From Streptosporangiaceae bacterium (GTDB lineage: Bacteria > Actinomycetota > Actinomycetes > Streptosporangiales > Streptosporangiaceae): a stretch of DNA of 40,045 nucleotides. The translations under genes were made by a program, and so were the position numbers. The stretch's first letter is position 1, and every line of letters starts with the position of its first letter. The stretch lies in contig JASHPF010000341.1 in assembly GCA_030038295.1 (NCBI GenBank), positions 1 through 40,045 of the forward strand, given 5' to 3'. Below, piece after piece: positions 3 through 20,874 of the stretch. The notes beneath the pieces are model-generated. The model made no database searches, had not been told where the DNA came from, and worked only from the letters and a program-made list of their open reading frames with translations.

Positions 3-1490
3 GCCGGGCCGGCCGGGGGAATACGGCCGGCCGGCGCCAGTTCGGCCCTGGACCGCCTGACTGCGGGGATCCCGGCGGTGGCCAGCCCTCCCGAGGCAGG
101 GCCCGCGGCGGTCGGCCCGGCAACGGGAAGCGCGCCGCCAGCGGGGCCAGCAACCGCGCCGGAGCCGCCGGGCGAGCCGGCGGCGGCGGGGCCGGTACCC
201 GCCGCCGAGCCCACCCAGGCGGCGGGCAGCCCGCACGTGTTCCTCGTCGACGCGAGTCGCGTGGCGCTGAGCTGGGCGCGTCGACGTCACCTCGGACTCA
301 GCTCCGCGTGCGGGATATCGGTCGCGCTCGCGGGCTGCGCGGCCATCTGGTTCTCGGTCGGCACACAGGCCGGCATCATTCGTGGCGTCGCGGCGCTGTG
401 GGCAAGCTACCTGGTGCTCGCCGCCGGGCGCATCATCGCCGCGCAGTCGGCTGACCTCGACGGGACGGCCGCGGCCCGTCGCCGTGCGGGGCCCGTAACG
501 TGGCTGGCCGCGCTGGGAAGTGCCCTGGCCGAGGCTGCCGTCTACGGAGGGATCGTGGTCGGCGCGGCGGCTGGCGACTGGCCAGCCGCCTGGCAGCTCG
601 GCGTCATGGTGCTCGGTCTGGTTGCGGTGCGGAACGTCATGACGGCCTGTTCTACGCCGTACGGCTTCAGTGCGTCACCCGGCAGCTTGATCGGCAAGAT
701 CACCGCTGGGATCGTCGTGATGCCGGCCGGCGGACGCATCCTCGTGGTCGGCCTCGTGGCGCCGATCTGGGGTGCCCGGACTACCCTGCTGGTGCTCGTT
801 GCCTGGGCGATCAGCTCCGTCGGGTATGGATTGGCCGGTCGCCCGCGGGCCGACGTTGCCCCGGAGGCCACCGGACCAGACGGCAGTGGTCCGCTGATCG
901 CGTCGCCGACGCTGGTTCGGCTGCGGGATGACGGAGCGCTGGCGCGCGGCCTTGGCGCGCTCGTCCGGGGCAGCCTGCTGCCGCTGCCGCCGGCCATCCT
1001 CGGGCTGGCCGGGGTGTCGGTCCTGGCCGTGCTCGGCCTGCACGGCCTGCCAGGGGCGCTCATGATCGGCCCTGCGATCGTCATGCTGGTCGCCGCGCCA
1101 GGCTCGGCCAACGCGCACGCCGGCCGGCTTGACTGGCTTGTCCCGGTGCTGCTGATCACTGCCCAGGTGCTCTATCTCGCTGCCGTTGGCGAGGGCGTCA
1201 AAGTCCCGGGACCGGTGACTTTTGCGCTGGTGGGGGCCCTGCTGCTGCGGTACACCGACCTGGCCTGCTCGCGTCGGCCCGTGCTCCTCGCCGAGCCTCG
1301 CCGGCACCGGCGAGCGCACCGCGAGTACGGCACTGAACTGGGCTGGGAGGGCCGCCTGCTCTTCGCGGGGGTGGCCGCCGCCATGGGCATCGCGACGGTC
1401 GGCTACCTCCTGCTGACCGTCTACCTGGTGGGCCTGGTTGGTGCGAAGGTCGTGCGGAGCTGCTGTGCGCCCGAGCAGGACCTCCGGTGA
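3..1490 (+). CDS. DUF5941-like integral membrane protein, 5' end outside the window
   Basis: Frame is open from base 3 with no stop before the annotated GTG at 78; multiple hydrophobic segments; C-terminal GTELGWEGRLLFAG resembles DUF5941 proteins. Confidence 0.6.
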   Translation, partial: AGPAGGIRPAGASSALDRLTAGIPAVASPPEAGPAAVGPATGSAPPAGPATAPEPPGEPAAAGPVPAAEPTQAAGSPHVFLVDASRVALSWARRRHLGLSSACGISVALAGCAAIWFSVGTQAGIIRGVAALWASYLVLAAGRIIAAQSADLDGTAAARRRAGPVTWLAALGSALAEAAVYGGIVVGAAAGDWPAAWQLGVMVLGLVAVRNVMTACSTPYGFSASPGSLIGKITAGIVVMPAGGRILVVGLVAPIWGARTTLLVLVAWAISSVGYGLAGRPRADVAPEATGPDGSGPLIASPTLVRLRDDGALARGLGALVRGSLLPLPPAILGLAGVSVLAVLGLHGLPGALMIGPAIVMLVAAPGSANAHAGRLDWLVPVLLITAQVLYLAAVGEGVKVPGPVTFALVGALLLRYTDLACSRRPVLLAEPRRHRRAHREYGTELGWEGRLLFAGVAAAMGIATVGYLLLTVYLVGLVGAKVVRSCCAPEQDLR

Positions 1491-2224
1491 TCGGCCTGGT
1501 CATGGCGGCTGGTGCGAGCCGCCGCCTGCGGCCGGAGACCGACCACCTGCCCAAGGCACTGCTACCCGTGGACGGCACGTCGACCATTCTCGACCTGGGG
1601 CTTCGGAACCTCGCCGGGGTCGGGATCGCTGACGTCGTCGTGCTCGTGGGCTATGCCGCGGCGGCCGTGGCTGCCCGCGTCCCGGAGCTGGAGCGTCGGC
1701 ACGGGGTGGCGATCGAGCTCGTCTATAACGCTCACGCCGAGGACTGGAACAACGCCTACTCGCTCTGGCTCGCGCGTGACCATTTTCGCCGGGGCGTCCT
1801 GCTGGTCAACGGCGATACCGTGCACCCAGCGAGCGTCGAGCGGGCGCTGCTCGCGGCCAGGGACGGTAGCTCGGACCTCATCCTGGCGCTGGATGACGTC
1901 AAGAAGCTGGCTGCCGAGGAGATGAAGGTGGCCCTTGGGGCGCACGACCGGCTCAGCCGGATCAGCAAGCTGCTGGACCCAGCCGATGCCGACGGTGAGT
2001 ACATCGGCGCGTCCCTGATTGAGTCCCGGGCAGCCGCAGCCCTGGCGGACGCCCTGGAGGCGACGTGGCGGCGCGATCCCGGCCTGTTCTACGAAGACGG
2101 CTATCAGGAATTCGCCAACCGAGGCGGCGTCGTCGTGGCGGCCCGGATCGGCGCCGTGGACTGGATCGAGGTGGATGACCACCGGGACCTCCGCCGAGCC
2201 AGGAACATCGCCAGCCGTTGCTAG
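1487..2224 (+). CDS. NTP transferase, sugar/alcohol-phosphate cytidylyltransferase-like
   Basis: N-terminal MIGLVMAAGASRRLRPETDHLPKALLPV nucleotidyltransferase signature; LLVNGDTVH; GTG start overlaps the upstream TGA (GTGA). Confidence 0.8.
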   Translation: MIGLVMAAGASRRLRPETDHLPKALLPVDGTSTILDLGLRNLAGVGIADVVVLVGYAAAAVAARVPELERRHGVAIELVYNAHAEDWNNAYSLWLARDHFRRGVLLVNGDTVHPASVERALLAARDGSSDLILALDDVKKLAAEEMKVALGAHDRLSRISKLLDPADADGEYIGASLIESRAAAALADALEATWRRDPGLFYEDGYQEFANRGGVVVAARIGAVDWIEVDDHRDLRRARNIASRC

Positions 2225-2312
2225 TCGCGGTTGGCAGCGGCCGCGCTGGGGGAGCACCTGAGCAGGCCGCCGCACGGGCCTCGGATGCGAGCGACCAGGA
2301 CGGGGGACAGCG

Positions 2313-3365
2313 ATGCCGCTGCTGACGCGGATGCTTCCGGCGCCGCTGGTCATCGACGTTCGGCCGGGCGCGGTTGCAGGCCTGACCGGACTACTGGCCG
2401 ACCATCGGATCGCCACGTCCGGCAAGGTGGCGGTGGCCGTGGGACCGGGCCAGGGTCAGAGCATTGCCGCGGAGGTCGACGTCGGGGCGGCGGAGATCTT
2501 CCAGGTGTCCGGGGGCACCCATGAGGCGGCCGCCGCGCTCGGTCACCGGCTGCGGACCGGCTCCTTCGAGGTGGTCGCGGGGATCGGCGGCGGTCAGACT
2601 ATCGACGTCACCAAGTTTGCGGCGCACATGGCGGGGATTCCGATGGTCGCCGTGGCCACGAGCCTGTCGCACGACGGCATCTGCTCACCGGTCAGCACGC
2701 TGCGGCACGAGTCTGGCGCTGGCTCGTACGGAGTGGCGATGCCCGTGGCCGTGATCGTTGACCTCGATCGGGTGCGCCGCGCGCCCGGCCCCATGGCTAC
2801 GGCTGGGATCGGCGACGTGCTGGCCGACCTCTCGGCGATAGCCGACTGGGAGCTCGCGGCCGCGGATCTCGGGGAGAAGGTCGACGGCCTGGCCATCGCC
2901 ATGGCCAGATCCGCCGCCGAGGCGGTCGTGCATCAACCGGGCCACGCCAGTTCTGACGGGTTCCTTACCGTTCTCGCCGAGTCGCTCATCCTGTCCGGGC
3001 TGGCGATGGCGGTGGCCGGCTCCAGCCGACCGGGGAGCGGGGGCGAGCACGAGATCATGCACGCCATCAACCAGCTGTACCCGGGGGCGGGCAGTCATGG
3101 CGAGCTGGCCGGGGTGGGCACCGTGTTCTGCGCGTTCCTGCGCGGCGACATCGAGCAGCTGGAACTGATTTCCGGGTGCCTGTCCCGGCACGGCCTGCCG
3201 CGGAACCCGGCCGAGCTCGGCATGTCGCACGCCGACTTCGCCAGGGCCGTCTGGTGCGCGCCCGAGACCAGGCCGGGCCGGTACACCATCCTGGAGCGGC
3301 TCGCCCTCAGCGAGGCTGACATCGCCGAGCAGGTGGACGCGTGCGCCAAGGAGGTCGCCGGGTAG
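2313..3365 (+). CDS. Iron-containing alcohol dehydrogenase / glycerol-1-phosphate dehydrogenase-like protein
   Basis: GIGGGQTIDVTKFAA, ATSLSHDGICSPVS and SSRPGSGGEHEIMHAIN match G1PDH/EgsA-type motifs. Confidence 0.8.
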   Translation: MPLLTRMLPAPLVIDVRPGAVAGLTGLLADHRIATSGKVAVAVGPGQGQSIAAEVDVGAAEIFQVSGGTHEAAAALGHRLRTGSFEVVAGIGGGQTIDVTKFAAHMAGIPMVAVATSLSHDGICSPVSTLRHESGAGSYGVAMPVAVIVDLDRVRRAPGPMATAGIGDVLADLSAIADWELAAADLGEKVDGLAIAMARSAAEAVVHQPGHASSDGFLTVLAESLILSGLAMAVAGSSRPGSGGEHEIMHAINQLYPGAGSHGELAGVGTVFCAFLRGDIEQLELISGCLSRHGLPRNPAELGMSHADFARAVWCAPETRPGRYTILERLALSEADIAEQVDACAKEVAG

Positions 3366-3372
3366 CGGCCGG

Positions 3373-5307
3373 CTAGCCCGAGCCGCTGGTGGAGATTCCG
3401 GCGCCGGGGGCCAGCCGCCAGCCGAGCACGCTGCCGATGTGGATGGTCGGCTGGCCGAATAGCTGGATCAGGAAGCTGCCAAGGCGGCTCGTCGTCGTCG
3501 TCACGGCGACGAGGGCGGCGGGCCGCCACGTCGCGAGGTCCGCGTTGATCTGCTGGCGGGAGGGCTCCGGCTCGGAGTAGTCGCCGACATACAGGTAGTC
3601 GATGTAGTACGAGGTGGGAGTCATCCCGGACCGGCCTGCCCGGCCCTGCCGGCCGGGCTGATTCGCGGCGATGAAGTCACCGCCGATCATGGTGGCTGGC
3701 TCGCCGCTATCGGCCTGCCAGCGCATCACCCCCGACGTGCCGGAATACGGGTACGGTGCCAGCAGCACGCGGGCATCCGCGGGCAGGTGCAGCGCGGCGA
3801 AGGTCGCGGTCCAGCCGACCGGCAGCCGGTTCACCTGGACCGGGGCGTACGGCGCCGGCACGAGGGGGAGCAGGGCCACCGCGGCGATGCCAGTCGCGAT
3901 CTTCGCCCCGTGCCGCCAGTTCGCGAACGGGGCAAACTGGCGGCTCCGCGCCAGGTCGAGCGCGAAGGCGAGCACCGCTGCCGCCGCGGCGTCTGCCAGG
4001 ATGCAGAGCCGGTCGGGCACCATGCCCTTGATCACCGGCAGGTGCTGCATCAGCCCCCACGGCAGCAGGAACGCCGGCAGCGTGGCGTGCGGCTGCATGG
4101 GCTTGGCGCCGAGCCCGAGCCACTCGAGCAGGACGCAGGTCAGGCCGGCCACCCGGATCGACAGTTCGTGCCAGAAGTAGACGATGGCGGCCACCAGCAA
4201 GATGATCATCGGTACGCCCAGGTAGGCCAGGTACTCGGGCAGCGGCTGCGGGTAGTTGTTGGCGATCACGCCGGTCGCGTGGGTGTGCAGCAGCACCCCC
4301 TCGGACGGGTTGATGAACGCGTATGGCAGCGTGCCCAGGTTCGTCAGCTGGCCGTGATAATTGATGATCGTCGTGGTCGAGGCGCCGCTGGCTGGCACAC
4401 CGTGGAACTGCACCCACAGCGCCCGCGCTGTCAGCACCAGGCCCACAACCGCCGCGGTCGCCAGCCCGACCGCCGCGGGCCGGAGCCGCTGCAGGACCTC
4501 GTGCGGCCTGCACGCGGCCAGCACGACGAGCAGGATGACGGCGGCGATGGCGGCGTCAACCAGCGCTTCCTCGCTGATGAACAGCTGGGCGGCGGCCATG
4601 AGGCCCAGCCACGCGCCATTGCGGACCGGCCGGCCGCGGCCGATAGCGAGCCGCACCACCCGGTCGATCATCAGCGGCGGCAGCATCGCCAGCACCAGCG
4701 AGTAGTGCCCGATTCCCGAGTTGACCAGGGCGGGCGAGAAACCGTACATGGCGCCGCCGAGCGCCGCCGCCAGCGGGCTCGCCTGCCAGCGGCGGAGCAC
4801 GTAATACATGGCCGCGGCGGAGCCGGCGAAGCCGATCAGAAGCAGCAAGGTCAGCCCAACCTGCGGGCCGAACGCCAGCGTGACAGGCGATACCACGATC
4901 CCCGGTAGCAGGACGGAGGTATTCCACATCAGGTTGACGCCGTGCGGTGCGTTCATCGCTGTCGTCTCGAGCGCGGGGAGACGCAGATGCTCCACCGCCG
5001 ACGCGGTATAACGAAGGAACCAGGTCGCCTGGTTGACGTCCTCGACGTCGCCGTTCTGGCGAGTAGTCGCCGGGTGGGCCAGCAACCGGGAGGTGACGTA
5101 GACGGCACCGAGTACGTAGCAGTACAGGGTGATCGCCTCGGCGCTGCGGGCCCAGGAGAGCACGCCACGACGGGTCGGCTGCTGCGATGACTCGACCGCC
5201 TCGGTGGCAAGTCTTGTCACCGTTGCCTCCCTCGGGGGAATTCCCTCAGCTTTTCTCAAGCTAGTAATAGCCGCATCGCTGCGCGGCAAAGATAACGCAA
5301 TACGCAC
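3373..5307 (-). CDS. Multi-pass membrane protein, GT-C glycosyltransferase-like
   Basis: 644 aa ORF with many transmembrane stretches and an extracytoplasmic C-terminal part; start codon not certain. Confidence 0.6.
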   Translation of the reverse strand: MRIALSLPRSDAAITSLRKAEGIPPREATVTRLATEAVESSQQPTRRGVLSWARSAEAITLYCYVLGAVYVTSRLLAHPATTRQNGDVEDVNQATWFLRYTASAVEHLRLPALETTAMNAPHGVNLMWNTSVLLPGIVVSPVTLAFGPQVGLTLLLLIGFAGSAAAMYYVLRRWQASPLAAALGGAMYGFSPALVNSGIGHYSLVLAMLPPLMIDRVVRLAIGRGRPVRNGAWLGLMAAAQLFISEEALVDAAIAAVILLVVLAACRPHEVLQRLRPAAVGLATAAVVGLVLTARALWVQFHGVPASGASTTTIINYHGQLTNLGTLPYAFINPSEGVLLHTHATGVIANNYPQPLPEYLAYLGVPMIILLVAAIVYFWHELSIRVAGLTCVLLEWLGLGAKPMQPHATLPAFLLPWGLMQHLPVIKGMVPDRLCILADAAAAAVLAFALDLARSRQFAPFANWRHGAKIATGIAAVALLPLVPAPYAPVQVNRLPVGWTATFAALHLPADARVLLAPYPYSGTSGVMRWQADSGEPATMIGGDFIAANQPGRQGRAGRSGMTPTSYYIDYLYVGDYSEPEPSRQQINADLATWRPAALVAVTTTTSRLGSFLIQLFGQPTIHIGSVLGWRLAPGAGISTSGSG

Positions 5308-5548: not shown

Positions 5549-6955
5549 GTGCATGACCTCAAGGTAAGCGACCCGCAGGCGACGGCCACCGGCCGGCCTC
5601 TGCGTAGGCTGCCGGGCCTCCAGAGCCCGGTGTGGCTGGTCCTGGTCGCTGCTGCGCTGCTGGTCGCAGAATTGACGCCCGCGCTACTCCGGCTGCCGCT
5701 CGGTGCGGACGAGATTACCTACATCGCCAGGACGAGTGTTCGCGTCTCGGGGGTGATGCTGCCGCCGGTGCACGGCCAGGGCGCCGGCCTGCTCGCGGCC
5801 CCGGTGACGCTGATCACCGGCTCGCTGACGGCGGTCAGGGTCTGGATGTCCGTGCTATCGGCGGTGGGCCTGTTCCTCGCCCTGCTTACCTGGCGCGGGC
5901 TGCGCCCGATGTGGGTGCTTGCCGTGGCCGGCCTGATCCTGGCGAGCCTCGCGATCACGCAGGACAGTGGCGTGCAGATCTACCCCGACTGGTGGGGCGC
6001 GCTCGGCGTGCTCGCGCTCACCGGGCTGATCCTCCAGGCCGTCAGCGGCAGGCTGCGGTCCCAGGCGGCGCTGCCGCTGATCGCCCTGGCCAGCCTGCTC
6101 ATCGTGCTCATGCGGCCGCAGAACATCGTGTTCATCATGGGGCCGGCGATCCTCGCAGTCGTCGTCGTGCCCGGCTGGCGCAAGCCCAGGCTCCTGATCG
6201 CCATGGCGATCGGGGCCGCCCTCGGCTGCCTTGAGTGGATCATCGGGGCGTACGTCTGGTACGGCGGGCTCGCCACCCGGCTGCACGAGGCCGGCCAGGA
6301 GCCGCCCGCACTCAGCCTGTACTTCGCGCTCGGCACTCAGGAGAGGGTGCTGAGCGGGCCGTGGTACTGCATCCCGCCGGCCGGCTGCAAGGGCTGGACC
6401 ATGCCGGCGGAGACGATCTGGTGGGCGGTATTCCTCGGCGTCGCCATCCTCGGCGTCGTGGCTACCTGGCGAACCGCGGCACGGGCATCCGCGATGCTCG
6501 CGGCGGCCACCGCAGTGTGGGTGTTCGCCTGCTATTCGTTCCTGGTGCCGTTCGGCGCGCCGCGCTACATCCTGCCCTCGCTGGCGTTCCTGTCCGTCCT
6601 GGCCGCGGACGGGGTCGCCTGGCTTGTGACAAGGACCCGCTGGCGGACCGCGGGGGTGGCGTTTGCGTGCGTGTTCCTGCTGTCCGGCGCCATCTCCCAG
6701 CGGTTCGTGCTCCAGCACCTGGTGGCCTCCGAGCGCACCGAGCGGCCGTTCCAGGCCGAGGCCGCGAAGCTCCGCAGCCTCGGCGTCCGGCCGCCGTGCG
6801 CCATCTGGTCGCCGTCGGTTGCCTACTTCGTCGGGTGCACCGCACCGTGGACGGGCGAGACGATGCACGAGTTGCTCAGCCACACCCCGCAGGGGGCAGA
6901 GGGCTGGCGCCAGGTGACGCTGCCGGACGGCAAGCGGATTTACGTTCCGCGCTAG
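5549..6955 (+). CDS. Multi-pass membrane protein, GT-C glycosyltransferase-like
   Basis: 468 aa, many TM segments; LGADEITYIARTS in the first extracytoplasmic loop is GT-C-like. Confidence 0.6.
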   Translation: MHDLKVSDPQATATGRPLRRLPGLQSPVWLVLVAAALLVAELTPALLRLPLGADEITYIARTSVRVSGVMLPPVHGQGAGLLAAPVTLITGSLTAVRVWMSVLSAVGLFLALLTWRGLRPMWVLAVAGLILASLAITQDSGVQIYPDWWGALGVLALTGLILQAVSGRLRSQAALPLIALASLLIVLMRPQNIVFIMGPAILAVVVVPGWRKPRLLIAMAIGAALGCLEWIIGAYVWYGGLATRLHEAGQEPPALSLYFALGTQERVLSGPWYCIPPAGCKGWTMPAETIWWAVFLGVAILGVVATWRTAARASAMLAAATAVWVFACYSFLVPFGAPRYILPSLAFLSVLAADGVAWLVTRTRWRTAGVAFACVFLLSGAISQRFVLQHLVASERTERPFQAEAAKLRSLGVRPPCAIWSPSVAYFVGCTAPWTGETMHELLSHTPQGAEGWRQVTLPDGKRIYVPR

Positions 6956-6973: not shown

Positions 6974-8566
6974 CTAGGAACCATCAGGACCGGCAAATGC
7001 GCTGCTGTCGTCGCAGATGTTGACGCTGCCGGTAATCCCGCCGTAGGTGGTGGCGATGTCCGAGATCGAGGCGCTGCTGCTACTCCCGGCCGAGCTGGCG
7101 GACTGGAGTGACGTAAAGGTGGAGCCGAGGATAAGCTGCACCGCCGAACCGGTAAGGCTCGGATCCTCCTCGAGCGTGACGCTCGGGATCAGCTGGGCCA
7201 GCGTCTGCGCTTCCGCTAGCTCGGCCTTGCCGCTGTACTCGATGACCGAGTTCGTGTACGTGTCGGCGGCCGCGTCGGCGGGCGCGCCGACCACGTTGTA
7301 GCCGAGCTGGCTGAGGCTCGCGGACGTGGACGTCGCCAGCCCGCCGGTCGTCGTGCCGTTCAGCACCTCGACATCGACGTCAGAGGGGCTGACGGTCGCC
7401 GTCGCCGGGGTCGTCTTGCCGGACTTGGGCAGCGTGTTGTCGTGGGCGATGGCCGAGAACAGCTCGTTAGCCTCCGGCTGCACCCACTGAACCCAGTTGA
7501 CGTTGCCGTAGCTCGGCGTCTCCGACGAGCTGATCCACTGCGCGTTCCCGGTGTAGGTCGTCCACGGCACCGTGACGAACTGCACCGAGTCTCCCTTAAG
7601 CCCGCGCAGGTCCTCGGCGATGCGCAGCATGACCGACGGCGTCAGGCCACTGTCGGTCACCACGTCCTGATGGGAGGTCAGCGTGTCGATGACCGACAGC
7701 ATCGTACTGGGACTGGTCATCAGGCTGCTGTGCTCGAGGCCCTGGAACAGAGCCGCCATGAGGAACTGGTCACGCTGGATGCGCTGCGGGTCAGAGCCGG
7801 TGCCAAGATCCTCCCTGGTCCGCCAGAACGCGAGCGCCTCCGGGCCGTAGACGTGGTGCATACCCGCGCTGAGGTTCAGATTGGACAGCGGGTCGTCGAC
7901 GGCCTCCGGCAGGCACACGTTGACGCCACCCAATTCGTTGACGACCTGCTCGAAGCCCGAGAACGTGAGCTCGACGAAGTCGTTGATGTGGATGCCGGTG
8001 GTCTGCTCGATGGTCTCCCAGAGGCAGCCGGGACCGCCGTAGGCGAATGAGGCGTTGATCTGCTCGATGTCGTACAGCGGCTCGGCCGTCTGCCCCGACG
8101 TGCCGCCCTCGGGCGTGCAGTTGAGGATGGGGACGACGGAGTCGCGCGGGAAGCTGAGCACGTCGACCTCGTGTGCCCCCGGTGCGATGTGGACCACGAT
8201 CACGGTGTCGGAGCGGGCGCCTTCGATTGCGTCAGCGCCGCCGGTGCCGCCGATCTCGCCGTTGACGCCGACCCGGCTGTCGGAGCCGATGAGCAGAATG
8301 TTCAAGGCATTCGGGTCGGCGGGCGGCCGCTTCGCGGCGTTCAGGTCGCCCGACACGTCGACCCGCGCGATCCCGTCCCAGGCGGCGCGGTACTTGAGGT
8401 AGATCGCCAGCGAGCCACCCGCGACGACGACGGCCAGGAGCACGGCGAGCGACCGAACGACCAGCGTCGAGGTCTTGTACCTGCGGCCTGGTCCTCGGCT
8501 GGGCGGGCCGGCAGGATCGGCGGATGGCGGTGACCAGCCGGTGGCGGCGTCGTCGTCGGTAGGCAT
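6974..8566 (-). CDS. LytR-CpsA-Psr (LCP) family protein with LytR_C-like C-terminus
   Basis: Single N-terminal TM; NILLIGSDSR, ARSDTVIVVHI, LSFPRDSVV, INASFAYGGPGCLWETIEQTTGIHINDFVELTFSGF; C-terminal VDVEVLNGTTTGGLATSTSASLSQLGYNVVG. Confidence 0.92.
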   Translation of the reverse strand: MPTDDDAATGWSPPSADPAGPPSRGPGRRYKTSTLVVRSLAVLLAVVVAGGSLAIYLKYRAAWDGIARVDVSGDLNAAKRPPADPNALNILLIGSDSRVGVNGEIGGTGGADAIEGARSDTVIVVHIAPGAHEVDVLSFPRDSVVPILNCTPEGGTSGQTAEPLYDIEQINASFAYGGPGCLWETIEQTTGIHINDFVELTFSGFEQVVNELGGVNVCLPEAVDDPLSNLNLSAGMHHVYGPEALAFWRTREDLGTGSDPQRIQRDQFLMAALFQGLEHSSLMTSPSTMLSVIDTLTSHQDVVTDSGLTPSVMLRIAEDLRGLKGDSVQFVTVPWTTYTGNAQWISSSETPSYGNVNWVQWVQPEANELFSAIAHDNTLPKSGKTTPATATVSPSDVDVEVLNGTTTGGLATSTSASLSQLGYNVVGAPADAAADTYTNSVIEYSGKAELAEAQTLAQLIPSVTLEEDPSLTGSAVQLILGSTFTSLQSASSAGSSSSASISDIATTYGGITGSVNICDDSSAFAGPDGS

Positions 8567-8758: not shown

Positions 8759-11218
8759 GTGCTTCCATCCGACATGGCGGACAGCAGTCCGAGCGCGGGC
8801 CAGCGCCCGGCTGAGGCCGATGTCGCGGACTCGGGCGAGATAGTCGCGGACTCCGGCGAGATAAGCGCGCCAGGGTTTCCCCGCCGGGTCGCTGGCCTGC
8901 GACCCCTGACAACCATGTTCGCCCCGGTCACCCGGACGCTGATACGGATCCGCCCGGCGGAACGGTCGGAGGATCAGGCCGGGCGGCTACGGCTCGCCGA
9001 CGGCGCGGGCCTGCTGCTGGCACGGCTGACCGTGCTGCCGGCCGTGCTGGTCCTGGCGTGGCTGATTCCCGGTCTGCCGCTGCTCCTCGGGCACGCATTC
9101 CGGCCGCTCCCCGCGTTGCTGATCTCGGTGCCGCTCGCGGTGGTGTTCGTCGTCGTGGGGTTGCGGGTCGTGCCGGCCGCGTGGCCGCGGCTGCTGCCCG
9201 CCCGGCGTCGTGCCGAGCCCGGCTGGGCTTCGTTGTTCGGGTTGCTGGCGACCGTCGTCGTCGTTGCTGGCCTGATGGGGTGGCAGTTCCGGGAGAGCTC
9301 GGAGGCGCTCATCGTGCTCCGGGATCCGGGCACATACCTGCAGGCGGGGTACTGGATCTCCCAGCACGGCGGGCTGCCCATCACCGAAAGGCTCGCGGCC
9401 TTCGGCGGCGCTCACTCGGGTCTGAACTTCGCCACGACCGGGTTCCTCACGCAGGGGACCGCCATCTATCCGGCCGTCACCCCGGGCCTTCCGCTGGTGC
9501 TGGCCGGGGCTTTCTGGGTGAACGGTGTTGCGGGCGCGACCGCCATGGGCCCGGTGCTCGGCGGGCTCGCGGTGCTGAGCTTCGCGGGTCTCGTCGCCCG
9601 CCTGGTCGGCCCGCAGTGGGCCCCCGCCGGAGCCCTCGTGCTCGGGCTGAGCATGCCCGAGCAGTACGTCGGCCGGACGACGCTCGCCGAGACGGCGCTG
9701 CAGATCGTGTTGTTTGGCGGGCTGTGCCTGCTCGCCGACTCGTTCGCGGTCCGCGGCGCTGGCCGGATCGCCGGCGGGTGGCTGACCGCGGCCGACCCAG
9801 ACGAGCCGCTCGCCGCCCGCCGCTTCGTGTCGCGGGTCACGCCCGACCGCGTCCTGGCCGTGCTGGCGGGACTGTCGCTGGGCTTCGGCCTCGTGGTCAG
9901 TCTCGACGCGCTGCCGTACCTGGTCGCCGTCGTCCCGTTCGGCTGCGCGCTGAGCATCGGGCGGCGGCGCCAGGCAACCCCGTTCCCCATCGGACTTCTC
10001 GTTGGCGTGTGTTACGGGGTGGTTGGCTGCCTGCTGCTGGATCGCCCGCTGCTCGACCGGGTCAGCCACCCTGTGGACCTCGCCGGGCTCGTGGCTGTCT
10101 GGCTGATCGCGCTGTCCTTCGTGGCGATTGAGGTCAGCCGGCTGGGCTGGGTGCGGCGGAACGTACCGCGCGCGCTGGCGGCCAGGCCGCTGCGCTGGCT
10201 GCCCGAGTTCGGCGCGTTCCTCGTGCTCCTAGCGCTGATCGGCCTGTTCGTCCGGCCCTACGTGCAGAAGGTGCACGGTCAGCCGGGCGCGGTGGTTGCC
10301 GCCTTCATCGCCTCGCTGCAGCGCGCAGAGGGGCTGCCGGTCGACCCGACTCGCACCTACGCGGAACAGGCACTGTACTGGCTGATCTGGTACATCGGCC
10401 TGCCGGCCGTGCTGCTGGGCGCCGTGGGCGTCATGCTGGTGGTCCGTCGCACCCTTCGCTCGCTGCTGACCTGGCGTGACCCCACCGGCGTGTGGCGCGG
10501 CTGGGCGCTGCCGACCGCGATCATCTGCGCCGGATCCGCGGTCGTGCTCTGGGCGCCCGACATCGTTCCCGATCAGCCGTGGGCGAGTCGGCGCCTCGTG
10601 GTTTTCGTCATCCCCGGGCTGATCTTGTGCGGGCTGTGGGCCACGTCCTGGCTCGCCAGGCGGGCCAGGGACCGGGGGGCCGGGCCGGTCACCGCGGGCG
10701 TCGCGGGGGTGTTCTGCTGCGCGGCGATGCTGCTGCCGACGGTGGCGACCACGTTCGGCCTCGGGCTGAGTCACAACAGCCAGACCGGCGCGCTGCGTCC
10801 GGTGGCGCAGGACGCGAACGCGCTGACTCGTATCGGAGCGGGGCAGCTCGGAGCCGTCCGCGCCATGTGCGCGCGGATCCCCGGCAACGCTTCGGTCGTG
10901 ATCGTCGACTGGGCCACGGCCGCGCAGTTCGCTCAGGTCGTCCGCGGAATGTGCGACCTGCCGACGGCATGGATGAGCGGGCAGGCGGTTTCGTCGGTCG
11001 ACCGCGTGATCGCCTCGATCGCTGCGACGGGCCGGCAGCCCGTGCTGCTCGCCGGGACACCTCAGCAGCTGGCGGCGTACAGCGGGGCGCCGGAATCCGT
11101 GCTCGACCTGACCACGACCAGTGACCCGCACGAGCTGACGGAGGTCCCGACCGCGCCTCAGGTCGTTCGGTACCGGGTCTGGATGACGCTGCCTGATGTG
11201 TCCGGGATCGGGGCCTGA
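8759..11218 (+). CDS. Large integral membrane protein, GT-C-like
   Basis: 819 aa, many TM segments, DPGTYLQAGYWISQHGGLPI extracytoplasmic loop; GTG start. Confidence 0.65.
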   Translation: MLPSDMADSSPSAGQRPAEADVADSGEIVADSGEISAPGFPRRVAGLRPLTTMFAPVTRTLIRIRPAERSEDQAGRLRLADGAGLLLARLTVLPAVLVLAWLIPGLPLLLGHAFRPLPALLISVPLAVVFVVVGLRVVPAAWPRLLPARRRAEPGWASLFGLLATVVVVAGLMGWQFRESSEALIVLRDPGTYLQAGYWISQHGGLPITERLAAFGGAHSGLNFATTGFLTQGTAIYPAVTPGLPLVLAGAFWVNGVAGATAMGPVLGGLAVLSFAGLVARLVGPQWAPAGALVLGLSMPEQYVGRTTLAETALQIVLFGGLCLLADSFAVRGAGRIAGGWLTAADPDEPLAARRFVSRVTPDRVLAVLAGLSLGFGLVVSLDALPYLVAVVPFGCALSIGRRRQATPFPIGLLVGVCYGVVGCLLLDRPLLDRVSHPVDLAGLVAVWLIALSFVAIEVSRLGWVRRNVPRALAARPLRWLPEFGAFLVLLALIGLFVRPYVQKVHGQPGAVVAAFIASLQRAEGLPVDPTRTYAEQALYWLIWYIGLPAVLLGAVGVMLVVRRTLRSLLTWRDPTGVWRGWALPTAIICAGSAVVLWAPDIVPDQPWASRRLVVFVIPGLILCGLWATSWLARRARDRGAGPVTAGVAGVFCCAAMLLPTVATTFGLGLSHNSQTGALRPVAQDANALTRIGAGQLGAVRAMCARIPGNASVVIVDWATAAQFAQVVRGMCDLPTAWMSGQAVSSVDRVIASIAATGRQPVLLAGTPQQLAAYSGAPESVLDLTTTSDPHELTEVPTAPQVVRYRVWMTLPDVSGIGA

Positions 11219-11353: not shown

Positions 11354-11430
11354 CGCGGGGTGGAGCAGTTCGGTAGCTCGCTGGGCTCATAACCCAGAGG
11401 TCGCGGGTTCAAATCCCGCCCCCGCTACCA
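11354..11430 (+). tRNA. initiator tRNA-Met (CAT)
   Basis: Cloverleaf cgcgggg...ctgggctcataacccag...gcgggttcaaatcccgc...ccccgctacca; CAT anticodon; three consecutive G:C pairs in the anticodon stem and a 1-72 mismatch, initiator hallmarks; encoded CCA. Confidence 0.95.
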
Positions 11431-11473
11431 GGTCAGAGGCCTTCGGCAGACAGCCGGAGGCCTCTTTTGTCGG
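11394..11473 (+). repeat. Direct repeat, left copy (attL-like): 3' half of tRNA-fMet plus terminator
   Basis: 11394-11466 identical to 17447-17519; 80 bp with one mismatch (T11467/G17520). Confidence 0.93.
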
Positions 11474-11850
11474 ACTTTTTGTAAACGGGATCTTCATCAG
11501 GTGGCGTGATCACGGCCGTCGGGGCGTCGTCGGCAGGCACGCGGTCCGAGGCCAGAACGCCGCCGATGATCAGCTCAGCGAGCGCTGTGGCGACCTGCCG
11601 GTCTGTCTCAAGGTCGGACTGGACGTACTGCCGCATCGTGAATGCCACGTCGGCATGGCCGATTCGCTGGCTGAGCGCCTTCCAGTCGATCTTGGCGTCT
11701 CGACCTGCCGTCGCGTAGCTGTGACGTATGTCATGCAAATCGATGAGCGGCAGCTCTGCGCGCGGCCACCCGCGTCCGGGCCGAACTCGGCGCGCTCCGT
11801 GTCGAGCTGCTCGATTAGGACCCTCAGTGCCGCGTAAAAGGATCGAGCGC
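11433..11850 (-). pseudogene. Tyrosine recombinase/integrase remnant (catalytic C-terminus)
   Basis: LHDIRHSYATAGRDAKIDWKALSQRIGHADVAFTMRQYVQ contains the HxxR...H...Y catalytic segment; upstream LDTERAEFGPDAGG is in a different frame from WPRAELPLIDLHDIRH; N-terminal domains missing. Confidence 0.8.
11435..11468 (+). terminator. Rho-independent terminator of tRNA-fMet
   Basis: AGAGGCCTTCGGC-agaca-GCCGGAGGCCTCT hairpin followed by TTTT. Confidence 0.75.
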
Positions 11851-18471: not shown

Positions 18472-18891
18472 TCACTGGCCCGATCGCCCCATGAGCTCAT
18501 CGGCCAGAGCAGCAACCCGCCGTTCAATCTCATCTCTGATTGGCCGAACATCTTCGAGGGCAAGTCCAGCCGGGTCTGGCAGCTCCCAGTCGATGTAGCG
18601 CTTGCCGGGATAGACGGGACACGCATCACCGCAGCCCATGGTGATGACGATGTCGGCGGCGTGCACGCTCTCGGTGCTGAGCCGCTTGGGGATCTCGCGC
18701 GAGATGTCGACACCGATTTCGGCCATGGCCTGGACCACCGCGGGGTTGAGCTGTCTCGCGGGCTCCGAACCGGCCGACGTGACGCGAACTCGGCCAGCAG
18801 TTGCGCGGTCGAGCAGCGCGGCGGCCATCTGGGACCGGCCCGCGTTGTGCGTGCAGACGAAGAGGACCTCGGGAACGTCCGGCATCGGCAT
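18472..18891 (-). CDS. arsC: Arsenate reductase, low-MW phosphatase type
   Basis: VLFVCTHNAGRSQMAAAL P-loop; ITMGCGDACPVYPGKRYIDWELPDP. Confidence 0.92.
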   Translation of the reverse strand: MPMPDVPEVLFVCTHNAGRSQMAAALLDRATAGRVRVTSAGSEPARQLNPAVVQAMAEIGVDISREIPKRLSTESVHAADIVITMGCGDACPVYPGKRYIDWELPDPAGLALEDVRPIRDEIERRVAALADELMGRSGQ

Positions 18892-18900
18892 GCCTCCGCG

Positions 18901-19620
18901 CTATCCGGCAAGCTGGGCTTGAGTGCGTGCGGCCGGCTGGTTGGCTCGTATCGGAACCACGACCACGGCGAGCACCGCGCCGAGGATGCCGCCGACGATC
19001 TGGGCGCCGATGAAGGCAGGGACCGAGCTGGGCGCGATGCCCGCGTAGGAGTTCGTGAGGCTGCGGCCGATGGTGACAGCCGGGTTCGCGAACGAGGTCG
19101 AGGCTGTGAACCAGTAGGCCGCGCCAATCCAGGCGCCGACTGCCCAGCTCGCGTGCTGCAGACGGCCCGTCCGCGCGAGGGTGACGATCACCAGGAGCAG
19201 ACCCGCGGTCGCGATGACCTCGCTGAGCAGCAGTGGCGTGCCCGCACGGTGGTGATGCGAGGGGCTGAGCACGGCCTGGCCGAACATGCCATCGGCCAGC
19301 GCCGCTCCGGCGATGGCGCCGGCGATCTGGCAGGCGATGACGGCGACGGCCTGGCCAATGCCGTAGCGGTGCACGGTGCGCCGGCCAAGCAGCCAGTCCG
19401 CTCCGGTGACGACGGGGTTGAACTGCGCGCCGCCGGCTGGCATCAGGATCAGGATGAGCACGGCCAGGCCCATTCCCGTGACGAGCGAGTTGATCAGCAG
19501 CCGCAGGGCAGCGTCGGCGGTGAGCTGGGTGGCCGCGATGCCCGAGCCGATGACGATGGCGGCCAGGAGGCACGTGCCGATGAATTCGGCGAGGAGCCGC
19601 CGGCCGACAGTGGAGTTCAC
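18901..19620 (-). CDS. MIP/aquaporin family channel
   Basis: LLAEFIGTCLL; AQFNPVVT and FANPAVT NPx motifs; located inside the ars operon. Confidence 0.88.
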   Translation of the reverse strand: MNSTVGRRLLAEFIGTCLLAAIVIGSGIAATQLTADAALRLLINSLVTGMGLAVLILILMPAGGAQFNPVVTGADWLLGRRTVHRYGIGQAVAVIACQIAGAIAGAALADGMFGQAVLSPSHHHRAGTPLLLSEVIATAGLLLVIVTLARTGRLQHASWAVGAWIGAAYWFTASTSFANPAVTIGRSLTNSYAGIAPSSVPAFIGAQIVGGILGAVLAVVVVPIRANQPAARTQAQLAG

Positions 19621-20435
19621 GCGGGCTTGACGGCGCGGACGATGGCCGAGTGGATGCCGGGGCGGGCCTCAGTGGTGAAGGTGACCGACGTATCGGTGAA
19701 GCCCGCAGCTGCCAGGCCGTCGAGGTATTCGCTGCGGGACAGCGCGCCCGCGATGCAGCCGACGTACGACCCGGCCGCGGCGCGATCGGCCGGGGTCAGC
19801 TGATCTTCGGCCACGACATCGGAGATGCCGATCCGGCCACCGGGGACCAGGACGCGGAACATCTCGGCAAGCACGGCGGCCTTGTCGACGGACAGGTTGA
19901 TCACGCAGTTCGAGATCACCACGTCGACCGAGGCGTCGGGCAGCGGTATGGCCTCGATGTCGCCCTTGAGGAACTCCACGTTCGCCGCGCCGGCCTTGGC
20001 GGCATTGGCGCGCGCCAGCGTGATCATGTCATCGGTCATATCGACGCCATAGGCGTATCCAGCGGGCCCGACCCGACGTGCGGACAGCAGCACGTCGATG
20101 CCGCCACCTGAGCCTAGGTCCAGGACGCGCTCTCCTTCGTGGAGGTCCGCGACGGCGATCGGGTTGCCGCAGCCCAGGCTGGCGAGGACCGCTTCCTCGG
20201 GTAGCCCGTCAGTCTCGCCCGCCCGGTAGAGCGGGCCGCCGAAGACGTCGGCGGTGTCCAGCGCTGCCGCCCCGGTTCCGCGGCACGAGCCCGAGTGAGA
20301 CGTTCCGCAGCAGCTCGCGCGGCGGCCCTGCTCGGGTTCCAGCACCGCCCGCGCGGCCGCACCGTAGCGGGCACGCACTTCCTCACGCAGGTCTGCGCTG
20401 GCCTGCTCAGGCACGGCTGGTACCCCCTCATGCAT
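19617..20435 (-). CDS. arsM: Arsenite S-adenosylmethionine methyltransferase
   Basis: LGCGNP, VLDLGSGGGIDVLLSARRVGPAGYAYGVDMTDDMI, SNCVINLSVDK; 4-bp overlap with the aquaporin gene. Confidence 0.92.
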   Translation of the reverse strand: MHEGVPAVPEQASADLREEVRARYGAAARAVLEPEQGRRASCCGTSHSGSCRGTGAAALDTADVFGGPLYRAGETDGLPEEAVLASLGCGNPIAVADLHEGERVLDLGSGGGIDVLLSARRVGPAGYAYGVDMTDDMITLARANAAKAGAANVEFLKGDIEAIPLPDASVDVVISNCVINLSVDKAAVLAEMFRVLVPGGRIGISDVVAEDQLTPADRAAAGSYVGCIAGALSRSEYLDGLAAAGFTDTSVTFTTEARPGIHSAIVRAVKPA

Positions 20436-20499
20436 AGATCACTGTCGATACGAACAGGATCGAGCACAGATAGACGATTGTCAATATGTGCCGCATACT
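20434..20499 (+). promoter_or_regulatory. arsR/arsM divergent promoter-operator
   Basis: Two related 18-mers (atagatcactgtcgatac 20434-20451; atagacgattgtcaatat 20470-20487); TAGACG (20471-20476) and CATACT (20494-20499), 17-bp spacer. Confidence 0.45.
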
Positions 20500-20505
20500 A
20501 GGCGC

Positions 20506-20874
20506 ATGAGCGTCGCCGTCACCAGCCAGTCGAGCCGCGAGCTGCCGCTCCTGGCCGATGAGTGCTGCACCCCGCTGCTGCGCGAGCCCCTGACCGCGAG
20601 CCAGGCTGCCGACCTGGCGCGCATCCTCAAGGCCCTGGCTGACCCGACGCGCCTGCGCCTGGTTTCGATAGTGGCCGCCCACGAAGGCACGGAGGCCTGC
20701 GTCTGCGAGCTGACGGACCCGCTCGGGCTCACGCAGCCGACCATCTCGCACCACCTCAAGATCCTGGTCGACGCCGGGATCTTCACCCGCGAGCAGCGAG
20801 GCAAGTGGGCCTACTACGCGCTCGTCCCGAGAGCCCTCGATGCCCTGTCGGCGGTCCTCAGCACAACCGCCTAG
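20506..20874 (+). CDS. arsR: ArsR-family regulator
   Basis: LKALADPTRLRLVSIVAAHEGTEACVCELTDPLGLTQPTISHHLKILVDAGIF; ATG at 20506 preferred over GTG 20488 because of the -10-like box. Confidence 0.9.
   Translation: MSVAVTSQSSRELPLLADECCTPLLREPLTASQAADLARILKALADPTRLRLVSIVAAHEGTEACVCELTDPLGLTQPTISHHLKILVDAGIFTREQRGKWAYYALVPRALDALSAVLSTTA

Follow-up and report, generated by a model that had tools for sequence, protein, structure and literature searches.

Archaeal-type ether lipids require sn-glycerol-1-phosphate (G1P), supplied by sn-glycerol-1-phosphate dehydrogenase (G1PDH) as the first enzyme of the route and used by PcrB/GGGPS. The handedness of G1P is what sets archaeal membranes apart, and evolutionary studies have left open what actinobacteria do with its synthase (PMC6431249, PMC5059525). 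The set of genes closest to the ones described here comes from Streptomyces: a 2026 synteny study treats araM, a CDP-alcohol phosphatidyltransferase, a GT2, a sugar-phosphate nucleotidyltransferase, tagG, tagH and crtB as one set, which by annotation it assigns to teichoic acid biosynthesis and to secondary metabolism (PMC13118837). This Streptomyces synteny is already published; we found no functional study of the cluster in the literature, and what we describe is a rearranged variant of it.

The class I CDP-alcohol phosphotransferases (CDP-APs), among them AF2299, IPCT-DIPPS and PIP synthase (PMC4634129), have a family signature that reads D1xxD2G1xxAR...G2xxxD3xxxD4. AF2299 was crystallised with CDP-glycerol (PMC4634129, PMC8633023) and probably serves PI-phosphate synthesis (PMC8633023). 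In MtPIPS the last Asp of the signature (D4) is the proposed base, and its replacement by Asn nearly abolishes activity (PMC4634129).

The window (the whole stretch of 40,045 nucleotides that was analysed, contig C420) belongs to an 87%-complete Streptosporangiales MAG, which has near named relatives among Streptosporangiaceae MAGs (G1PDH 89% identical) and many cultured Streptosporangiales. Its first three genes are the form taken, after rearrangement in one branch, by a cluster that is conserved in many soil actinobacteria. This cluster probably produces glycerol phosphate of the mirror-image ('archaeal') form and activates it for use in a polymer of the cell envelope or in a lipid head group.

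Three genes at a contig end

We confirmed three ORFs, all on the + strand and with a coding-like third-position GC of 0.85-0.89: gene 1 (3-1490), gene 2 (1487-2224, GTG start) and gene 3 (2313-3365, ATG start). Base 1 of the window is the end of the contig, so gene 1 is truncated and its 5' side is open. The original prediction had described three consecutive genes, the first two coupled by a GTGA overlap, and both the ORFs and the overlap (at 1487-1490) were borne out. It was also right about the nucleotidyltransferase in second place and the G1PDH motifs in third, while a simple DUF5941 identity for gene 1 and partner genes just to the left did not survive.

Gene 3 encodes a G1PDH-like protein of the EgsA/AraM type. 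It matches PF13685 in Pfam (87 bits) and the NCBIfam G1PDH model NF002022 with 217 bits, below the equivalog cut-off of 413, which is why we call it G1PDH-like; NF002022 is still its best family by far, the glycerol dehydrogenase model reaching 55 bits. Among proteins of solved structure, archaeal G1PDHs match it best (E ~2e-37). The predicted TSxSHDG/HE-type motifs are present as TSLSHDG at residue 116 and as GEHE/SHGE, and an alignment to 4rgq and 14 orthologues finds the metal ligands intact, whereas their loss would have spoken against the prediction. Three residues occupy these positions on the + strand: D168 (codon 2814-2816) is nearly invariant and aligns with the conserved Asp of the M. 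jannaschii G1PDH, and H246 (3048-3050) and H262 (3096-3098) are invariant in the 14-orthologue alignment and align with the archaeal His residues. Asp, His and His at such places presumably bind the metal, as in the G1PDH family at large. Gene 3 thus resembles archaeal EgsA and Bacillus subtilis AraM in its domain, its predicted ligands and its SSRPxSGxEH and HGE motifs, and differs from them in falling below the equivalog cut-off and in having a nucleotidyltransferase and CDP-APs as partners, instead of PcrB.

Gene 2 (NTP) encodes a LicC/IPCT/PntC-type nucleotidyltransferase, a probable CTP:phosphoalcohol cytidylyltransferase. Both PF00483 and PF12804 match above cut-off, in support of the predicted nucleotidyltransferase, and LicC is its best PDB match by sequence. 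A Foldseek search with the AF2 model (pLDDT 92) placed three CTP-using enzymes at the top, LicC (E 1.1e-15), the T. maritima inositol-1-phosphate CTP transferase and PntC; enzymes of the RmlA and GalU types came shortly after them. Since both fold and sequence lie nearest to cytidylyltransferases, use of CTP is likely. Motifs invariant in the family are kept in the window protein, which shares with LicC, inositol-1-phosphate cytidylyltransferase and PntC the fold, the nucleotidyltransferase signature and a WNNxYSL-type stretch; it differs from them in sequence (~20% identity in the fold comparison) and in being paired with a G1PDH.

Gene 1 was harder to place. It had no Pfam match, DUF5941 included, even at E=10, NCBIfam gave it no family name, and a sequence search of the PDB returned no match. 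In relatives, its position is held by a pair of genes, DUF5941 and AP1, the latter a CDP-AP whose N-terminal region is large, and the protein from the window can be aligned with either. The C-terminal half of gene 1 scores 135 bits against a DUF5941 profile built from syntenic orthologues, while a same-genus orthologue of gene 1 reaches 19.6 bits with PF19365 (DUF5941), under the 27-bit cut-off. A full-text search of the literature for DUF5941 was without result. In the N-terminal half, alignment to AP1 orthologues shows that the CDP-AP signature is lost, with the metal-binding and base Asp residues absent; this half is by descent a CDP-AP relative and not a catalytic member. The AF2 model is poor (pLDDT 49), and Foldseek ranks 16 CDP-AP chains first, none with an E-value <0.05. 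We therefore read gene 1 as a polytopic membrane protein in which a degenerate AP1 domain and a divergent DUF5941 domain are fused. The DUF5941-like protein first predicted is recovered in the C-terminal half through the orthologue profile, though neither as a Pfam match nor over the N-terminal half, and an intact partner enzyme is no longer to be sought here, as the catalytic signature is gone.

Loss of the AP1 signature is not peculiar to the window. It is also seen in the gene 1 orthologues of six near genomes (L077, L078, L037, L079, L084 and L085), and among 89 loci the signature is complete in 72 and absent in 17. Some lineages keep the rest of the cluster all the same, so AP1 catalysis is dispensable in them, and the AP1 protein may there have a structural role.

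The cluster in relatives and its rearrangement

G1PDH was found in 200 of the 201 genomes sampled from Streptosporangiales. Its surroundings usually follow the order LCP< GT2> IspD< AP1> DUF5941> NTP> G1PDH> AP2> GT2>, sometimes with TagG-TagH. Among the 80 best-matching loci of our named collection, which is not an even sample, NTP lies near G1PDH in 76, AP2 with its GT2 in 72, DUF5941 in 71 and LCP in 70. An NTP-G1PDH pair adjoining two CDP-AP genes and a GT2 recurs in many genera, also in other families of the class. For the lone G1PDH paralogues of Nonomuraea-like genomes we found no conserved neighbours common to them. The window has its own LCP (LytR-CpsA-Psr) glycopolymer transferase gene on the - strand (6974-8566; PF03816 at 137 bits, and PF13399), a putative participant in the cluster, which it often adjoins in relatives.

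Conserved co-occurrence in other genomes, by which the predicted association could be judged, was found across genera and, for AP2, outside the window's family. In a class-wide sample of 297 genomes, whose counts are not phylogenetically independent, G1PDH was present in 72, and AP2 accompanied it in 65 of these as against 36 of the 225 genomes without G1PDH. With the window's family left out, the contrast is 37/44 against 36/225. Seven G1PDH genomes had no AP2 match. Actinobacteria without G1PDH retain AP2-GT2, in many cases together with TagGH and another nucleotidyltransferase, ~235 aa long. AP2-GT2 hence seems to be an envelope module of general use, to which G1PDH would supply the alcohol phosphate in particular lineages.

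In the window's genus this arrangement has been broken up. AP1 and DUF5941 are fused, AP1 is without catalytic residues, and AP2-GT2 is not downstream of G1PDH. In the window's genome AP2 and its GT2 lie on another contig, C343, where AP2 passes the Pfam cut-off for CDP-OH_P_transf (36 bits); although unlinked, an AP2 match is present in 9 of 9 genomes of the genus. The AP1-DUF5941 fusion is also found in the near MAGs L084 and L085, where AP2-GT2 is still in place. The gene set of the Streptomyces araM cluster (PMC13118837) equals that of the relatives studied here, from which the window's genus departs by its fused, non-catalytic AP1 and its unlinked AP2-GT2. Near AP2, in three inspected genomes of the genus and in the window's own, there is an ORF that by eye we named histidine-ammonia-lyase-like.

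The partner genes had been expected to the left of the window. Contig C66 of the same genome ends PhoH> GT2> IspD<, and the same arrangement stands to the left of the G109 orthologue, so C66 probably abuts the window on that side, although we found no sequence overlap joining the two. The left neighbours of the window are thus probably IspD (on the opposite strand), GT2 and PhoH. Synteny with L037 and G109, taken with contig C66, led us to reject a missing CDP-AP immediately to the left, and the transferase, AP2, is instead the one on C343.

AP2 and a proposed route through CDP-glycerol

AP2 keeps seven of the eight residues of the CDP-AP signature (D1, D2, G, AR, G and D3). The exception is D4, where 81 loci have His and 16 have Ala, the AP2 of the window's genome having His. 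These seven residues it shares with AF2299, IPCT-DIPPS and PIP synthase, and AF2299 is the closest and its best solved relative (E 1.9e-8); the departure at D4, like that of the window's AP1 domain, without the signature altogether, sets the cluster apart from all three. It could be speculated that another group substitutes for D4, or that the acceptor, a phosphate nucleophile for instance, requires no deprotonation. An acceptor whose nucleophile is already ionised, such as polyprenyl phosphate, would explain the absent base. The cluster draws attention to a subfamily of CDP-APs in which the catalytic motif is not the established one, and the D4 gap makes AP2 a sharp target.

The route that we favour, with a little less than an even chance of being correct, leads from DHAP through G1P to CDP-glycerol and, with AP2 as the transferase, on to a glycopolymer or lipid of the envelope. 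G1PDH (gene 3) would reduce DHAP to G1P, and the nucleotidyltransferase (gene 2) would join G1P and CTP to give sn-1 CDP-glycerol. AP2 would then move phosphoglycerol from CDP-glycerol onto a membrane-linked acceptor with release of CMP, and the product may be extended, exported or attached by the GT2 next to AP2, by LCP transferases and, in loci that have one, by a TagGH-type exporter. Gene 1, a CDP-AP domain devoid of catalytic residues joined to DUF5941, would probably be a membrane partner with no catalytic part in this. Our observations are the family assignments, the residues, the synteny and the co-occurrence, whereas every substrate, the acceptor and also the product are inferred.

This CDP-glycerol route is favoured by the likeness of AP2 to AF2299, by the absence of PcrB and by the absence of TagD at cut-off where TagF is present. 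PcrB (PF01884) was found in 0 of 61 Streptosporangiales genomes and in 0 of 20 further genomes of the class that carry G1PDH, in searches whose positive controls matched. TagD (TIGR01518) reached its cut-off, below which divergent TagDs could score, in 0 of the 61 genomes of the order; its four strongest sub-cut-off matches were three HldE-type proteins and one without a family. The TagF-type polymerase (PF04464) is present in 60 of the 61, and in the window's genome it lies on C366, fused to a GT2. The G1PDH ligands, the likeness of gene 2 to cytidylyltransferases, the synteny of the cluster, the co-occurrence of AP2 and its retention throughout the genus, and the LCP and TagGH neighbours also support the route, as does the teichoic acid heading under which the Streptomyces study places its cluster (PMC13118837). 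It is weakened by the sub-equivalog score of G1PDH, by the missing fourth Asp of AP2, by the 36 genomes with AP2 and no G1PDH and the seven with the reverse, and by the unlinked parts in the window's genome. The predicted CDP-activated alcohol pathway from G1P therefore gains from the two CDP-APs and GT2 adjoining G1PDH-NTP, from AP2 co-occurrence and from PcrB absence, and has to be amended in that the transferase is on another contig. Literature searches on CDP-2-glycerol, actinomycete teichoic acids and sn-G1P teichoic acids yielded nothing usable for a G1PDH-NTP-AP2 pathway.

The cluster and the absence of PcrB offer a concrete answer to what actinobacterial G1P is for, namely activation by CTP for the cell envelope. 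If true, bacteria would here be using archaeal-type glycerol phosphate for something other than ether lipids, and organisms with TagF-type polymerases and no recognisable TagD would have a source of CDP-glycerol. The TagD/TagF pathway of glycerol teichoic acids would then share with the cluster the proposed CDP-glycerol intermediate and, in the window's genome, a TagF-type polymerase, and would differ in its TagD, absent over cut-off from the order sample, and in a glycerol phosphate of the opposite handedness. A wider claim, that in Streptosporangiales and Streptomyces CDP-sn-1-glycerol from a G1PDH and LicC-type route replaces TagD and feeds a CDP-AP without the canonical base Asp, placing archaeal-handed glycerol phosphate in an envelope polymer, is unlikely to hold.

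Competing readings of the cluster

G1P could instead be the acceptor of a CDP-AP, in the way that inositol phosphate serves PIP synthase, with NTP activating some other alcohol phosphate and AP2 or AP1 linking both to form a glycerophospho-diester head group. Inositol-1-phosphate CTP transferase and LicC among the fold neighbours of NTP fit this arrangement, and AP1 and AP2 also match models of PIP synthase and archaetidylinositol-phosphate synthase, whose acceptors are alcohol phosphates; AP2 moreover occurs without G1PDH, near a different nucleotidyltransferase. Against it, NTP and G1PDH are the tightest pair of the cluster, as hand-over of a substrate would have it, and the cluster has no constant second enzyme forming an alcohol phosphate. 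We place this reading on the unlikely side.

Quite unlikely, in our estimate, is that G1PDH and NTP make CDP-glycerol mainly for TagF-type polymerases encoded elsewhere, in replacement of TagD, giving a wall polymer with sn-glycerol-1-phosphate units while the CDP-APs act on something different. The near-universal PF04464, the lack of TagD over cut-off and the HldE character of three of the four strongest weak TagD matches speak for such a supply, which leaves the adjacency of AP2 and GT2 unexplained, however, and TagD may be present in divergent form. TagF-type enzymes may also use CDP-ribitol, and an IspD-SDR gene adjoining the cluster in some genera suggests a CDP-ribitol route.

That the copy in the window is a decaying remnant, no longer working, is very improbable: the AP1 signature is lost and the locus is split, but the family-invariant residues checked in NTP and G1PDH are kept, the split is common to related genomes that all retain AP2, and the signature is equally lost in other lineages keeping the rest. 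An archaeal-type ether lipid, or a B. subtilis-type heptaprenylglyceryl phosphate, made by prenylation of G1P by PcrB/GGGPS is hardly credible and was rejected by the absence of PcrB from all 81 genomes, even though G1PDH opens that route and Streptomyces has been reported with all three archaeal genes (PMC6431249).

As a minor observation, weak PF04464 matches several kb from some G1PDHs seemed to sit at LCP positions.

Second G1PDH copies in related genomes

Nonomuraea-like genomes carry a lone second copy of the sn-glycerol-1-phosphate dehydrogenase-like enzyme (G1PDH; loci L039, L040, L080, and L083), which is about 70% identical to the G1PDH of the window, as against about 60% for the clustered G1PDH of the same genomes. 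It is possible that these lone copies derive from a transfer from the window's lineage. A comparison among the four loci found no neighbours common to them. Streptomyces-like genomes (L071 and L074) also have a second G1PDH paralogue, separate from the AP2-GT2 cluster and with conserved neighbours of its own, one of them a very large ORF (approximately 1100-1400 aa). In the alignment of orthologues, Glu replaces the metal-ligand Asp in the clustered G1PDH of L073 (SGVGEAVSN); this Asp is otherwise conserved.

Genes adjoining the cluster

In Nonomuraea-type loci, the IspD gene adjoining the cluster (L041:13687-15783) bears a C-terminal SDR-like extension. Because of this extension, and of a score slightly under the IspD cut-off, it may encode a CDP-ribitol-type enzyme rather than the IspD of the MEP pathway.

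The LCP (LytR-CpsA-Psr) gene of the window is flanked by genes for three large polytopic proteins (3373-5307, minus strand; 5549-6955 and 8759-11218, plus strand), for which a Pfam search gave zero matches. The first two are kept next to the cluster, together with the LCP gene, in the same-genus genome G109. All three may be GT-C-type glycosyltransferases acting in the same envelope pathway as the cluster.

tRNA-Met site and probable arsenic-resistance group

Immediately after a tRNA-Met(CAT) gene (11354-11430) comes a short antisense ORF (11433-11738), whose match to a phage integrase is weak, partial, and under the Pfam cut-off. The site (11354-11738) probably retains a leftover of an element that had used the tRNA as its integration point.

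Further along lies a probable arsenic-resistance group (18472-20874). Judged by their Pfam domains, its genes encode an arsenate-reductase-like protein of the low-molecular-weight phosphatase fold, a MIP channel, an ArsM-like methyltransferase, and a regulator of divergent ArsR type.
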